Translations under genes and position numbers: made by a program
The notes under the pieces: model-generated
The model's database searches: none
Told to the model about the DNA's origin: nothing
What the model saw: the letters and a program-made list of their open reading frames with translations, nothing else
Shown: in pieces, positions 4,108-12,235 of the stretch
Position numbering within the stretch: position 1 is the stretch's first letter
Layout: the number at the start of each line of letters is the position of its first letter
Origin: Nitrospirota bacterium
Lineage (GTDB): Bacteria; Nitrospirota; Leptospirillia; Leptospirillales; Leptospirillaceae
Assembly: GCA_021816465.1 (NCBI GenBank)
Contig: JAKAYF010000017.1
Location: 1 to 33,114 of the forward strand
DNA length: 33,114 bases
Direction: 5' to 3'

Positions 4108-4325
4108 AATCAGGTCCTCCGAAAGGGACTCCCTGCTGCTTCGGGATGAGACTAATCCTTGTCATCAGAAGCGGTTTAATGTATCTTTCTTCGATTGAGT
4201 TAATGATTCCGATTCCGACAATGCACTCCAATCGATGGGGCTGAATGCTGTAGATAAACAGCAGGCGATGTTCATTGTGTTTTCTGGCAAAAATGTCCAC
4301 TATCCGCTTTAAGGAGCTTTCCCGA

Positions 4326-5468
4326 ATGAAAAAACAGTATCTTTTGGCACCAGGACCAACCCCCGTTCCACCAGAAGTTCTTCTCGCCATGTCCCGTCCC
4401 ATCATCCATCATAGGTCTCCTGACTTTATCCCGATCATTCAGGATGTTCGCAAGGATCTGAAATGGCTCTTCCAGACCGAACAGGAAGTCATTACTGTTG
4501 CAGGAAGCGGTACGGCAGGAATGGAAGCATCCATTTCGAACTTCATGTCCCCCGGGGACAAGATTCTGTCTGTGAATGGCGGAAAGTTCGGTGAAAGATG
4601 GGCCAAGATCGCCACAGCTTTTGGCGTGACGACCATTGAGATCAAGGTCAATTGGGGTGAGTCGGTCAATGTGTCCGAGATCAAGGCTCATCTGGACAAG
4701 GATCCATCCATCAGGGGTGTATACGTTCAGGCGAGTGAAACCTCAACCGGTGTGGCCCATGACGTCAAATCCATTGCCGAGATTACAAAGACCCGCGAGA
4801 ATACCATTCTGGTCGTTGATGCCATTACCGCCCTTGGTGTCACCAATCTTCCCATGGACCTCTGGGGAATCGATATCCTGATCACCGGTTCGCAGAAAGC
4901 GCTCATGCTTCCACCAGGACTGGCCTGCATCGGCGTTTCGGAGAAAGCCTGGAAACATCAGACTCAGGCCAAGTGCTCCCGTTTCTACCTTGATCTCAAG
5001 AGGGAAAGAGACAATCTTCTGAAAGATACCAATGCCTGGACTCCGGCCGTTACTCTTTGGATCGGTCTTGCGACATCCCTGAAAATGATGCGCGAAGAGG
5101 GTCTTGAAAACGTTTTTGCAAGACATGCGAAGCTTGCCCGTGCCACCAGGGAGGGTGTGAAGGGATTTGGTCTTGAGGTCTTCGCCAAGAATGCGCCTTC
5201 TGATGCTGTGACCGCTGTTCTGGCTCCGGAAGGGTTTGACGGAGAAGCACTTTACAAGAATCTTCGGAAACAATACGGGATCACCGCAGCTGGCGGGCAG
5301 GATCAACTGAAGGGAAAAGTTTTCAGGCTCTCTCATATGGGCTACTCTGATGTTTTTGACATCATCACAGCCATTAGTGGCGTTGAAATGGCCCTTTTCC
5401 GCATGGGATACAAGCATCCTCTCGGATCAGGTGTTGCCAAGGCCCAGGCCGTATTGATCGAGGACTAA
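4326..5468 (+). CDS. Class V pyridoxal-phosphate aminotransferase (serine/alanine-glyoxylate aminotransferase family)
   Basis: 'LLAPGPTPVPPEVLLAMSRPIIHHRSPDF', 'VDAITALGVTNLPMDLWGIDILITGSQKALMLPPGLACIGVS' (PLP-Lys region); SD-like AAGGAG upstream of ATG 4326. Confidence 0.9.
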   Translation: MKKQYLLAPGPTPVPPEVLLAMSRPIIHHRSPDFIPIIQDVRKDLKWLFQTEQEVITVAGSGTAGMEASISNFMSPGDKILSVNGGKFGERWAKIATAFGVTTIEIKVNWGESVNVSEIKAHLDKDPSIRGVYVQASETSTGVAHDVKSIAEITKTRENTILVVDAITALGVTNLPMDLWGIDILITGSQKALMLPPGLACIGVSEKAWKHQTQAKCSRFYLDLKRERDNLLKDTNAWTPAVTLWIGLATSLKMMREEGLENVFARHAKLARATREGVKGFGLEVFAKNAPSDAVTAVLAPEGFDGEALYKNLRKQYGITAAGGQDQLKGKVFRLSHMGYSDVFDIITAISGVEMALFRMGYKHPLGSGVAKAQAVLIED

Positions 5469-5498: not shown

Positions 5499-7106
5499 TT
5501 GTCAGAAAATATCAGGGTACTTGTCAGTGATGCCATCTCTGAAGATGGGTTGAAAATTTTCAGGGAAGCCGGTTTTGAAGTCGTGGTCAAGACAAAACTG
5601 ACCCCGGAAGAGCTTGCCGTTGAAATTGCAGGCTATGACGGTCTTGTCATCAGAAGCGGGACCAGGGTTACCAAGGAGATTTTAAAGGGAGCAAAGCGTC
5701 TCAAGGTTGTCGGACGGGCAGGAGCCGGACTCGACAATGTTGATCTTGAAGCGGCAACGTCACATGGGATCGTCGTGATGAACACTCCTGGCGGAAACAC
5801 CATTACGACAGCAGAGCACACCATGTCCCTCCTGATGTCCATGGCAAGGCGCATTCCCCAGGCCAATGCCTCCAATCGGTCCGGAAAATGGGAAAAAAGC
5901 AAGTTTATGGGTGTGGAGCTTTTTCAGAAAACCCTGGGAATCATCGGAATGGGGAAGATCGGACAACACCTTACCCAGATTGCAAAAGGGCTTTCAATGC
6001 ATGTTATTGCCTTTGATCCCTATCTGACCCCTGAAGTGGCGGAAAAATCGGGCGTTGTTCCTGTATCTCTCGATGAGATTTACCAAAAGGCGGATTTTAT
6101 CTCCGTCCATACCCCACTCAACGCTGAAACAACCAACCTGATCAACAAGACCACTATTGCCAAGATGAAAAAAGGTGTTTATATCGTCAATTGTGCCAGG
6201 GGCGGAATTGTCAACGAGGCTGATCTTGCAGAAGCGCTCCTGAGTGGTCATGTTGCCGGCGCGGCTTTTGACGTGTTTGTTCAGGAGCCGGTTCCTGCCG
6301 ATCATCCCCTGTTGAAGATCGATTCCTTTATCTCAACTCCGCATATCGGGGCGGCAACAAAGGAAGCCCAGGAGAATGTGGCGCTGGCGATCGCAGACCA
6401 GATGGTGGACTACCTTGCCAAGGGTGTCATTCGCTATGCGGCCAATCTTCCATCTGTCTCACCGGAAGAGATGAGCATCGTCACTCCTTACCAGAAGCTT
6501 GCCGAGATCATGGGGAATATCCTTTCCCAGATTTCTTCCTCGCCCCTGTCGAAGGTAACCATCGAATTTTCAGGAGAGATTGCTACTATTCCTACGGCGG
6601 CCGTTACGATTTCCGCATTGAAAGGGATTCTGTCTCCAATCCTCGATACCCGGGTCAATGAGGTCAACGCTCCGATCCTCGCAAAAGAGAGGGGAATCGA
6701 GGTTGTCGAGGTTCGCTCAACTCACAACGGAGATTACACGGGTCTCCTTTCGATCAAGATTTCTTCTGCAAATGATTCCCACCAGATTGCCGGTTCGGTC
6801 TTTCAAAAGAGGGATTATCGGATCGTTTCGATGGATCAATTGCCTGTTGAAGTCATTCCCGAACCAATCATGGTTTACCTTACCAATCAGGATCAGCCAG
6901 GTGTTGTAGGGGCGGTTGGCACCATTTTGGGTAACCACAAGATCAATATTTCAAGGATGCAGTTCGGTCGGGACTTCCCGGGAGGAAAGGCCATTTCCCT
7001 GATTGGCGTGGATGATGAAATCAGCCCGGCTCTTCTTGAAGAGCTTCGGAAGATTCCGAATATCCTTTCTCTCAAGATCCTCCATCTTCCTTCTGCCAAG
7101 GCATGA
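5499..7106 (+). CDS. serA: D-3-phosphoglycerate dehydrogenase (TTG start)
   Basis: 'GRAGAGLDNVDLEAATSHGIVVMNTPGGNTITTAEHTMSLL', 'GIIGMGKIGQHL', C-terminal ACT-like domain; 535 aa. Confidence 0.96.
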   Translation: MSENIRVLVSDAISEDGLKIFREAGFEVVVKTKLTPEELAVEIAGYDGLVIRSGTRVTKEILKGAKRLKVVGRAGAGLDNVDLEAATSHGIVVMNTPGGNTITTAEHTMSLLMSMARRIPQANASNRSGKWEKSKFMGVELFQKTLGIIGMGKIGQHLTQIAKGLSMHVIAFDPYLTPEVAEKSGVVPVSLDEIYQKADFISVHTPLNAETTNLINKTTIAKMKKGVYIVNCARGGIVNEADLAEALLSGHVAGAAFDVFVQEPVPADHPLLKIDSFISTPHIGAATKEAQENVALAIADQMVDYLAKGVIRYAANLPSVSPEEMSIVTPYQKLAEIMGNILSQISSSPLSKVTIEFSGEIATIPTAAVTISALKGILSPILDTRVNEVNAPILAKERGIEVVEVRSTHNGDYTGLLSIKISSANDSHQIAGSVFQKRDYRIVSMDQLPVEVIPEPIMVYLTNQDQPGVVGAVGTILGNHKINISRMQFGRDFPGGKAISLIGVDDEISPALLEELRKIPNILSLKILHLPSAKA

Positions 7107-8488
7107 GCAAGATTTCGCAAAAATATCAGGCACCTGCTTCCCGTTTGGAAAAAAGAGGGCTGACTCCGAAAGGGGTTGGCCCTCTTTTTTCGGGGAATCC
7201 CACGTTCCGGCGGAAAGTGGCAGGGGAACTTCTCGACCTTTTCAGACAGAGAGGGTACCGGGAGATTGCTCTTCCTGCGTTTGAGTACCTTGATGCCTTA
7301 AGACCCGGAATCGATCCGGCCCTCCTTGAAAAGTCCTATACCATACAGGACCGGACTTCGGGGCATGTCCTGATCCTGCGACCCGATGCGACTGCCCAGA
7401 TAGCCAGGCTTTTGGCTCATGCCATCGACTCGGGATTCAATGATTTGAGATTTTCCTACAGCACAACGGTGTTTAGACATGAAGACCACCATGTGCTTGA
7501 ACGGGAACTTTTCCAGGCTGGAGTCGAGTATTGGGGAAATGGAAGCGTCTGGGGCGACTGGGAAATTATTCATCTTTGCCTGCAGGGAGCGCGAAAGCTT
7601 GCCATCTGGGACCCAACACTCGTCTTGTCTCATCAGGGGCTCCAAACAACAATTCTTGACCTTGTGGCAGAGATCGCTCCTGAAGTTTCAAGACAGGAAA
7701 TATCAAGGCTGTTCTATGCTCATGACTCAGGCTCCCTTCACGAAATCATCCAGGGCGGAACACCTAACAAGATTCTTTCGTCCAGAAAGATAAAGTGTTT
7801 TTCTGAAACACTGTCATTTTTCCTTCGAAATGTTGTTCCTCTTCCCGAGGCACTCGCTTCCCTTGAGACCTTGTCGTCATGCTTGCCAAATGGCCAGGTC
7901 GACGCGTCTTTTCTCGCCCTTGTCAAGGAATGGACCCATGCTCCATCCGAGATTGTCCTCGATCTTGCCTTGGCCCCCGTTGGTCCATACTACAGCGGAA
8001 TGTTCTTTCATCTTTATACTCCGGGGTCGACAAGGGAAATTGCATCGGGTGGGAGATACGATAAACTTCCTGCCCTGTTTGGGGCCAATATTCCGGCTAC
8101 CGGATTTGCCTTCCATCTGAACCGGATCGATGACTCAAGCAATATCGGAAAAGAGGTTCGGGACCAGGGAGAAATCCACTTTCTCCTTCAGCCTGAAGAT
8201 GCGGGAGCCTATCATCTGATCGAAAAACTCGTCTCCAGTCTGACGCCAAACCGGCAACCTGTCCGGATCCTTTATCCGGATTCCTTTCCGGGGAACAGGG
8301 AACTCCATCTCCTTGACCTCTCTTATTTTGAGAAATTTCCCAATGTGACCGAGGTCATCTGGAAGAAGGGCGATGATTTTATCTCTTTTTTGAAAAACGG
8401 GTCCTCTCACAGGATCTCCCAGACAGATCATTCTCCTTCACATGAAGACACTGTTCCCCAGCAAGAGCATCATCAAAATCCGTCCTGA
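7103..8488 (+). CDS. hisZ: ATP phosphoribosyltransferase regulatory subunit (HisS-like)
   Basis: HisRS-like core without anticodon domain: 'LLDLFRQRGYREIALPAFEYLDAL', 'LRPDATAQIARLLAH', 'EASGGRYDKLPALFG'-type motif; 4-bp overlap with serA. Confidence 0.85.
   Translation: MSKISQKYQAPASRLEKRGLTPKGVGPLFSGNPTFRRKVAGELLDLFRQRGYREIALPAFEYLDALRPGIDPALLEKSYTIQDRTSGHVLILRPDATAQIARLLAHAIDSGFNDLRFSYSTTVFRHEDHHVLERELFQAGVEYWGNGSVWGDWEIIHLCLQGARKLAIWDPTLVLSHQGLQTTILDLVAEIAPEVSRQEISRLFYAHDSGSLHEIIQGGTPNKILSSRKIKCFSETLSFFLRNVVPLPEALASLETLSSCLPNGQVDASFLALVKEWTHAPSEIVLDLALAPVGPYYSGMFFHLYTPGSTREIASGGRYDKLPALFGANIPATGFAFHLNRIDDSSNIGKEVRDQGEIHFLLQPEDAGAYHLIEKLVSSLTPNRQPVRILYPDSFPGNRELHLLDLSYFEKFPNVTEVIWKKGDDFISFLKNGSSHRISQTDHSPSHEDTVPQQEHHQNPS
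7148..7191 (+). promoter_or_regulatory. Terminator-like hairpin inside the 5' part of hisZ
   Basis: GAAAAAAGAGGGC (7148-7160) perfectly complementary to GCCCTCTTTTTTC (7179-7191); inner ACTCC-GAAA-GGGGT stem with tetraloop; T6 run at 7185-7190. Confidence 0.7.
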
Positions 8489-8517: not shown

Positions 8518-9909
8518 ATGAAAAATGTCAAAAAATCCGGCAATGAAGCTTTCCGGAATCTTCCTCAAAGCATAGAGGCGGAAAAATCGTTTTTAGGATC
8601 GATTCTTCTCAATAATGAAGTCCTTACCCAGATCGGTGACAACGTCAGGGAGGAGGACTTCATTCTTGATGCCCATCGGAAGATTTATCTGGTGATGAGG
8701 GAAATGGCCGAGATCCAGCATCCCATCGATCCTGTGACTTTGTCGGACCGTCTCAAGAAAAAAGGGTGGGACGGTCTGACAGGAGCTCCCCAATATATAG
8801 AAGACTTGAGCTATATCGTTCCGACAGCTGCCAACGCCAAGCACTACGCCAGACTTTTGACGGAAAAGGGGATTTACAGAAAGCTTATCCTGGCGGCTGA
8901 GGACATTGCTCAAAAGGGCTATGAGGAGACAGAGGAGGTCGAATCGCTTCTCGACCTTGCAGAAAGAAAGATCCTTGAAATTGGATCCCACAAGAACTCT
9001 GGAGGTTTTGTAAAGGTAGGGGATGTTCCGTACCTTGATACCCAGTTCAAGAAGCTTGAAGAGCTTCGTTCAAGGGAAATCGCTGATGCCGTCATTGGAC
9101 TCCCCACAGGATTCATTGATCTCGACAGGATGACAACAGGGCTCTACCCATCGGACCTGATTATTGTTGCCGGTCGTCCTGCCATGGGAAAAACGGCATT
9201 TGCCATGGGTATTGCCCAATACGTCTCTTTTGATCTCAGGCTGCCTGTTGGAATCTTTTCCCTGGAAATGTCCAAGGAGCAGCTTTTCATGCGTCTCATC
9301 AGCTCACAAAGCCGGGTCGATGCCTGGAAGCTTCGTACCGGCCAATTGCCAAGCGATGACTGGCGAGCCGTTATGCAGGCATTCGGTGAGGCCAGCGATG
9401 TGCCCCTTTTTATTGATGATTCGGGGGACCTCTCCGTTTATGAGCTCAGGGCCAGGGCCAGAAGGCTCAAGGCGCAAAATAAAAATCTCTCACTGATTGT
9501 TGTGGACTATCTTCAGTTGGTGAAGGGTTCCCAGAGAACCGACAATCGGGAACAGGAAATTTCCGAGATCTCCCGTTCGCTTAAGGCATTGGCGAAAGAG
9601 CTCAACATCCCTGTCATTGCGCTTGCCCAGTTATCCCGATCTGTCGAGAATCGCCCAAAGGACAAGAAACCCATTCTTTCTGATCTCAGGGAATCTGGCG
9701 CCATCGAGCAGGATGCGGATATTGTTCTTTTTATCTACAGGGACGAGGTTTATAACAAGGAGAACCTCGACAACAAGGGGAAGGCTGAGGTCATTATCGG
9801 CAAACAGAGAAACGGACCGATCGGTTCAGTCAATCTTGCCTTTCTGGGCCATTGCACAAGATTTGAAAACCTCGCTTACGGTTACGACAATATGGATGGG
9901 GGAGAGTAG
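8518..9909 (+). CDS. dnaB: Replicative DNA helicase
   Basis: 'LPQSIEAEKSFLGSILLNNEVL', 'LIIVAGRPAMGKTAFAMGIAQ', 'LSLIVVDYLQLVKG', 'LRESGAIEQDADIVLFIYRDEVY'. Confidence 0.97.
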   Translation: MKNVKKSGNEAFRNLPQSIEAEKSFLGSILLNNEVLTQIGDNVREEDFILDAHRKIYLVMREMAEIQHPIDPVTLSDRLKKKGWDGLTGAPQYIEDLSYIVPTAANAKHYARLLTEKGIYRKLILAAEDIAQKGYEETEEVESLLDLAERKILEIGSHKNSGGFVKVGDVPYLDTQFKKLEELRSREIADAVIGLPTGFIDLDRMTTGLYPSDLIIVAGRPAMGKTAFAMGIAQYVSFDLRLPVGIFSLEMSKEQLFMRLISSQSRVDAWKLRTGQLPSDDWRAVMQAFGEASDVPLFIDDSGDLSVYELRARARRLKAQNKNLSLIVVDYLQLVKGSQRTDNREQEISEISRSLKALAKELNIPVIALAQLSRSVENRPKDKKPILSDLRESGAIEQDADIVLFIYRDEVYNKENLDNKGKAEVIIGKQRNGPIGSVNLAFLGHCTRFENLAYGYDNMDGGE

Positions 9910-9910
9910 C

Positions 9911-10624
9911 TCAAAACCCGCCGACAGAAGAGACGCTGCCCCCTTGAGTCTGCATCACCGTCGACAAAGGGATCGGAACGACGTCCGTAAATGTTTTTTC
10001 TCCATTTTTTCCTGCTCTTACCTTGAGGACAATCTTGACATAAACGGGAAGAAGATGGCTCTGCATGGAATTCCACTGGTTCACCCATTCATGGCTGTCA
10101 AAATAGAAAAGACGCAGGGAGAGAACGTGGTGAAGCAGGGGTTCGGCCTGGACGGCTTCGGTTCCATAGCTTAGGAGGTTCGTGTCCTGCTCATGGGCCA
10201 ATACATATTCCCCTGGCTTCTTTTCCGGGAGGAGTACGTACTGAACGCCCATCAGGTGCGAGACGGGAGCGTTTTGCATGAGTCGTGTCTGTCCCAGGGA
10301 GGTGAAGAGCAGCGTGTCGGTCTCCTCATCCCCGGCACTTTGAGGATTTCCGATAAAGTAGGTGAGGGGATCATTGGGATTGATGTAGGTTGAAAGAATT
10401 TCTCCATGAATGCGAAACAGGGCGCTTTGGACATTTTCATAGATCCTGTTCCCTTTATTTGCAATGGACATAACTTTTTGCGTGCTCTCAACGGCTCCGA
10501 ACAGCAGTCCAAGAATCATGGCAAAGATCATGAATGCGACAAGAACTTCGATCAGGGTAAATCCGCCATCGACACAGTTTGTTTCCTTTCCTGAAAGGCA
10601 GCCTTGGGGCTTATCCAGCATCAC
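9911..10624 (-). CDS. gspJ: Type II secretion/pseudopilin GspJ-like
   Basis: Prepilin N-terminus 'GFTLIEVLVAFMIFAMILGLLFGAVEST' and GspJ-like length; third gene of a pseudopilin operon. Confidence 0.75.
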   Translation of the reverse strand: MMLDKPQGCLSGKETNCVDGGFTLIEVLVAFMIFAMILGLLFGAVESTQKVMSIANKGNRIYENVQSALFRIHGEILSTYINPNDPLTYFIGNPQSAGDEETDTLLFTSLGQTRLMQNAPVSHLMGVQYVLLPEKKPGEYVLAHEQDTNLLSYGTEAVQAEPLLHHVLSLRLFYFDSHEWVNQWNSMQSHLLPVYVKIVLKVRAGKNGEKTFTDVVPIPLSTVMQTQGGSVSSVGGF

Positions 10625-11697: not shown

Positions 11698-12235
11698 CGA
11701 TAAAAATCAGGCTTTATCGAATCGCGATAAACAATCCTGCCTCTCTGGTGTCGTAATTGAACATCCTGAATGTTTGTTTTAGAATTGGTCTATGGATGAA
11801 AAAACGATCTTGCGTACAGGTAGAAACTGCAGTTTCTCAATTATTATTGAGTTGGTCTTTTTTGCGGTCAAAAAAAGTGAGGTTTTCGACAACCACGCAC
11901 TGAGCATTCTTGAGACGATCTTCAAGAGTGTTTGCAGCGATTTTGACGCGAAGCTCCTTCAAATGAGGGGAGAGCCGGACCATGTTCATCTGCTTGTGGA
12001 AATTCCTCCTAAAACTGCTGTCTCAACGCTTGTCAACAGCCTGAAGTGTGTTTCGAGCCGTCTTCTGAAAAAAGAGCGCAAGGATCTCTCTGACCGGTAC
12101 TGGAATGGGATGCTTTGGTCGCCAAGCTATACGGCTCATTCGCATTTGGGGTGTTTTGGCAAAAAACTTGATTGCCGCTCAGAAGAAAACCCCATATAGA
12201 AACTGGTCTGCGATAAAAACGTTACGGTTTTCATT
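11698..12235 (+). mobile_element. Decayed IS200-type element
   Basis: Defective Y1 transposase ORF flanked by hairpin-forming ends: CGATAAA/TTTATCG/CGATAAA at 11698-11731; CGATAAA at 12211-12217 and AAAAC-gttacg-GTTTT just after. Boundaries approximate. Confidence 0.6.
11792..12199 (+). pseudogene. tnpA: IS200-like Y1 transposase TnpA, frameshifted and degenerate
   Basis: 'DFDAKLLQMRGEPDHVHLLVEIPPKTAVSTLVNSLKCVSSRLLKKE..YWNGMLWSPSY' is TnpA-like with HUH motif; after ~12140 homology ('VLAKNLIAAQKKTPYR') continues in another frame and the catalytic Tyr position is lost. Confidence 0.8.

Follow-up and report, generated by a model that had tools for sequence, protein, structure and literature searches.

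A terminator-like hairpin within the hisZ coding sequence of Leptospirillum and related genera

Introduction

In sequence terms, an intrinsic terminator is a stable stem with a U tract at its foot. Terminators of this kind lie between the genes of operons, where partial read-through gives rise to unequal expression. Mapping of 3' ends in Escherichia coli and Borrelia has also placed ends inside open reading frames (ORFs), which were attributed in part to premature termination (PMC7815308, PMC10319736). In attenuation of the pyrBI/pyrL type the terminator is prevented by a translating ribosome, and the his operon is governed by leader attenuation.

The hairpin described here lies within hisZ, close to the end of serA, and resembles each of these systems in part. 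It shares with operon intergenic terminators a GC-rich stem and a U tract following an upstream gene, but is embedded in conserved codons of the gene that follows, where every base also serves HisZ. The ORF-internal terminators of E. coli and Borrelia are mapped 3' ends, whereas the evidence for the hisZ element is of selection at the sequence level across several genera. As in pyrBI/pyrL, the terminator would overlap a translated frame; the hisZ frame, however, encodes a full-length enzyme subunit and not a leader peptide, no signal for a sensed codon or a pause was found, and gating by translation is a candidate at most. The his leader likewise joins a histidine-pathway gene to a terminator, but the hisZ case has no His-codon leader and no alternative antiterminator was identified, so that it is not a member of this class of attenuators. 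No paper combining L. ferrooxidans with hisZ was found in the literature searched.

Gene context of hisZ

The window is the entire stretch of DNA analysed, a contig of 33,114 nt from a Leptospirillum genome (GCA_021816465.1). Members of Leptospirillum are acid-loving bacteria. Relatives from the same class were compared as genera g1 to g5: g1 comprises three Leptospirillum genomes (the window, G001 and G002), which are not mutually independent; g2, g4 and g5 are represented by one genome each; and the remaining genus, g3, by 14 genomes. The hairpin-bearing set consists of six genomes from four genera, namely the three of g1 and those of g2, g4 and g5. Four genes of the window are relevant:

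4275-5468, + strand: class-V aminotransferase, first gene of a conserved cluster (profile matches, gene order); the true start is probably 3' of the ORF start
5499-7106, + strand: serA, phosphoglycerate dehydrogenase, immediately upstream of hisZ (TIGR01327, 649 bits)
7103-8488, + strand: hisZ, regulatory subunit of ATP phosphoribosyltransferase, its ATG overlapping the serA stop as ATGA (TIGR00443, Pfam tRNA-synt_His)
8518-9909, + strand: dnaB, replicative helicase, downstream of hisZ (profile matches, gene order)

All loci of sufficient length retained this order, those of g3 included. The hisZ frame scored 181.7 bits against Pfam tRNA-synt_His, over the cut-off, and 180.7 bits against TIGR00443, under its cut-off of 271.65; its product is 83% identical to HisZ of Leptospirillum sp. 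clean858 (L032). No strong Shine-Dalgarno sequence was found for hisZ. With the hisZ ATG at 7103-7105 and the serA stop at 7104-7106, the hairpin begins 45 nt into hisZ and 41 nt past the serA stop, in agreement with a preliminary description of this DNA, which had placed it approximately 45 nt inside a hisZ frame whose ATG overlaps that stop. The window has no His codon ahead of the hairpin, which bears out the earlier view that this is not classical his-leader attenuation.

The codons of the hairpin encode RGLTPKGVGPLFS, and the motif TP[K/T]GV[G/S]P[L/V]FS is conserved throughout the class; the earlier proposal that the frame through the hairpin fits the N-terminus of HisZ is thereby upheld. 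A hisZ start downstream of the hairpin, offered previously as an alternative, was rejected: the hairpin encodes conserved HisZ residues and the start therefore does not lie downstream, and, apart from the hisZ start itself (in g1 the overlapping ATG), the hisZ frame ahead of the hairpin contains no start codon in g1, the window included, or in g2 or g5. The sequence TPKGVG-FF is also present, with weak stems, in distant Nitrospirota-type relatives outside the class (family f3), and part of the structure was therefore inherited with the protein. These comparisons indicate that the HisZ motif predates the class and that a moderate hairpin is favoured by the protein motif alone.

The aminotransferase resembles aspartate-glyoxylate aminotransferase (330 bits, below cut-off) and lies beside serA in relatives; it may act as a phosphoserine transaminase. 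At the other end of the cluster, dnaB (+ strand, ending at 9909) and a gene resembling type II secretion system (T2SS) protein J (- strand, ending at 9911) converge without a gap and with no obvious terminator between them (9905-9915). Minus-strand transcripts would enter dnaB and hisZ in antisense orientation. Elsewhere in the window, a 5S rRNA gene occupies 10-126 at the window edge, the corresponding place in G002 being followed by a U-tailed hairpin, and an ORF for an IS200-like (Y1) transposase lies at 11792-12199 (135 aa, family match across most of its length).

Structure of the hairpin

The element comprises the following features:

7148-7191, + strand: 20-bp intrinsic-terminator-like hairpin with GAAA loop at 7168-7171, within the hisZ coding sequence (folding; kept in relatives)
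7155-7184, + strand: GC-rich core of the stem, GAGGGCUGACUCC GAAA GGGGUUGGCCCUC, with a counterpart at the same codons in three other genera, bases partly different
7185-7190, + strand: U6 tract, codons CTT TTT TCG; U6 also in five further hairpin-bearing genomes

The sequence GAAAAAAGAGGGCTGACTCC-GAAA-GGGGTTGGCCCTCTTTTTTC (7148-7191) folds into a single unbroken helix of 20 bp, G.U pairs counted, in which 7148-7167 pairs with 7172-7191 across the GAAA tetraloop. The local hairpin energy was -34 kcal/mol; the 91-nt context yielded a z of -3.9, with 0 of 200 shuffles as stable. The preliminary description was correct in the sequence and coordinates of a strong terminator-like hairpin, its T-run being the U6 at 7185-7190, and in the GAAA loop. 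Its architecture of a 13-bp stem and a separate inner 5-bp stem did not hold, the two forming one 20-bp helix that is stronger than stated.

The U6 run lies at the base of the 3' arm and is itself part of the stem; a simple scan for the terminator consensus missed the hairpin for this reason. Rfam yielded no match for the hairpin, the 5S rRNA being the only match above gathering score in the window. An origin as a repeat element was rejected, since the 141-nt region is single-copy in a DNA search of the whole of the window's own assembly. In Leptospirillum the minus strand likewise folds into a U-tailed hairpin (-19.2 kcal/mol). The terminator had earlier been described as possibly bidirectional; the minus-strand hairpin was confirmed in g1, but bidirectional function is not conserved, since the 5' arm carries an A run in that genus only and not in g2, g4 and g5. 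A role on the minus strand is thus unsupported outside g1.

The background was a 418-kb sample of G002, a congener genome in a single contig, in which ORFs stood in for genes. With loops of 3-8 nt, every other perfect stem in the window or on either strand of the sample is shorter than that of the hairpin, which is also the most stable of the hairpins adjoining a U tract in the sample, exceeding intergenic and 5S rRNA terminators. One high-scoring 'intragenic' hit in the sample (L043, 1229-1261) is, to judge from where it lies, apparently the 5S rRNA terminator beneath a spurious ORF. A terminator score of the d'Aubenton-Carafa type ranged from 49 to 63 in five of the six hairpin-bearing genomes and was only 10 in G006; most 5S and other probable terminators of Leptospirillum scored 44-68. 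In stability the hairpin is comparable with these probable terminators.

Conservation within Leptospirillum

The 44-nt hairpin is 100% identical in G002, where hisZ overall is 76% identical. A single change was found in G001, a synonymous GGG to GGA that turns a G.U pair into A-U. Between the window and G002 all 14 codons of 7148-7187 are identical, against a hisZ background of 49% of same-residue codons. Across all three Leptospirillum genomes 13 of the 14 hairpin codons are identical, compared with 2 of the next 14 (Fisher, 7e-5).

The first 15-16 codons of serA (5499-5546) are identical in all three genomes, which exceeds any other such run in the four genes, and a second RNA-level constraint is possible there. 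As the start of serA is about as conserved as the hairpin, codon conservation alone is no proof of selection on RNA.

Codon-randomised null

The contribution of the protein was assessed with a null in which the amino acid sequence was fixed and codons were drawn from local usage, each of 4000 trials per genome being scored on hairpin energy and U6. In the three g1 genomes 7, 6 and 3 of the 4000 trials attained both the energy and U6; the counts were 0, 4 and 2 of 4000 in g2, g5 and g4, respectively. The joint probability is therefore at most about 2 in 1000 in each of the six genomes, each treated alone. Mean null energies of -13 to -20 kcal/mol show that the TPKGVG motif alone gives a moderate hairpin. 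A null scored on minimum free energy only, over a wider region of 72-90 nt, gave weaker values (P 0.006-0.08), that test being too diffuse. These results indicate that the hairpin and U6 together exceed what the HisZ protein sequence requires.

The hairpin in related genera

In g2, g4 and g5 the same codons form a hairpin in which some of the paired bases differ, following the pattern GGGGCC..ACTCC-NAAA-GGAGT..GGCCCC-G and then U6. Ungapped alignment between genera revealed a change of A-U to G-C at one pair and of G.U to C-G at another. All six hairpin-bearing genomes carry U6, compared with 2 of the 14 g3 genomes (p = 7e-4, genomes treated as unrelated). Conservation of the stem through synonymous and compensatory changes in relatives had been put forward earlier as a check, and was borne out by conserved synonymous sites in g1, paired changes between genera and retention of U6.

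The distance from the hisZ start to the hairpin is conserved at about 45-48 nt. The distance from the serA stop varies, from about 39-41 nt to about 86 nt in G005, where there is no ATGA overlap and hisZ begins 40 nt after serA; the hairpin is kept there at a similar distance from the hisZ start.

Genus g3 is the exception. Its 14 genomes carry a TPTGVSP motif and no hairpin at those codons; a GC hairpin without a U tract on the + strand is found instead shortly after the hisZ start, upstream of the site of the g1 hairpin. Each of these 14 hairpins exceeds its null mean in stability, but with P of 0.02-0.45 among related genomes they are not clearly beyond the codon null. RNAalifold gave five pairs, three with double-sided changes. 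Several of the g3 loci L048-L061 have an A run ahead of the GC hairpin, which is U-tailed on the minus strand. The absence of the terminator from g3 shows that this gene order can exist without it; its function there may have been either lost or replaced by another type of structure.

Proposed function

The element, located among the first 30 codons of hisZ, is probably a selected, partially efficient intrinsic terminator within a coding sequence, which lowers expression of hisZ-dnaB relative to serA. RNA polymerase leaving serA would form the 20-bp hairpin, reach U6 and stop in a fraction of rounds, yielding transcripts of the aminotransferase and serA whose 3' end the hairpin protects. The remaining polymerases would continue into hisZ and dnaB, giving a lower mRNA level of both. 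A dual role in HisZ coding and as a terminator-type hairpin is supported by the synonymous conservation, the paired changes in other genera and the retained U6, and the plausibility accorded earlier to a coding and regulatory role is thus strengthened. From these features we infer termination of transcription at the hairpin, its partial nature and control of the serA : hisZ-dnaB ratio. Rho was present in 21 of 21 genomes, and absence of Rho is therefore no argument for Rho-independent release. Points against a terminator are that the protein motif alone favours a moderate hairpin and that g3 lacks the terminator; in addition, a terminator inside hisZ would produce non-stop hisZ fragments, which is a cost.

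The least certain component is a lowering of termination by hisZ translation reinitiating at the ATGA overlap. Were read-through to need ribosomes that, having finished serA, start again at the hisZ ATG and mask the hairpin, transcription of hisZ and dnaB would sense translation (or translation of serA) and fall when it is slow. Such an attenuator, which the preliminary description had raised, is conceivable but unlikely: the ATGA overlap, the lack of a strong Shine-Dalgarno sequence, the position of the hairpin 45 nt past the hisZ start under a conserved translated frame, and the established suppression of terminators by ribosomes in pyrBI-type systems are consistent with it, whereas G005 retains the hairpin without the overlap and no codon bias toward a sensed amino acid was found. 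Furthermore, translation in E. coli cost a terminator placed 30 bp into a second ORF only about 10% of its efficiency, and terminators worked close to their maximum once they lay over 30 bp beyond a stop codon (PMC4824070). Those data suggest that terminators within the first 100 bp of a gene mostly escape suppression by ribosomes. Here 41 nt separate the serA stop from the stem, which exceeds the 30-bp distance where ribosomal repression tails off in E. coli. On account of these data on terminator position (PMC4824070), termination that is partial and for the most part does not depend on translation of hisZ is favoured. An RNA structure without termination, slowing hisZ translation or, after processing, shielding the 3' end of serA from nucleases, is rather unlikely. 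The g3 hairpins, which follow closely on the hisZ start, lack a U tract and in all 14 cases surpass their own null mean in stability, suggest that a hairpin alone might be a common feature, but they do not clearly exceed the codon null, and U6 and the hairpin occur together in six genomes drawn from four genera, most g3 genomes having lost the tract.

That the TPKGVGP motif and its flanks merely happen to form a palindrome, the RNA being unselected, is improbable; the protein alone yields moderate hairpins and the motif predates the class, yet the joint null probability, no more than about 0.002 in any of the six genomes from four genera, the synonymous conservation in g1 and the paired changes between genera argue for selection. 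A bidirectional terminator acting mainly to block antisense transcription from the convergent minus-strand genes abutting dnaB is very improbable. The U-tailed minus-strand hairpin of g1 and the gapless junction of dnaB with the T2SS-type gene fit such a role, but the A run of the 5' arm is limited to g1 and the hairpin is 2.7 kb away from the convergent junction.

Significance

Intragenic terminators are usually regarded as rare accidents or have been mapped singly. The terminator-like element in hisZ lies in a biosynthetic coding sequence, is conserved at synonymous sites, and has been rebuilt with partly different pairs in four genera while absent in a fifth. It offers a route to asking whether transcription and translation are coupled in this lineage, a subject on which no data were found. 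A translation-sensing gate kept by the lineage, in which faltering reinitiation at hisZ would stop transcription of hisZ and dnaB, is a decidedly doubtful prospect; if true, expression of a replication gene (dnaB) would be tied to amino-acid metabolism. The partial terminator proposed here would be a naturally occurring case, open to testing, in which the same bases serve both a protein and termination.
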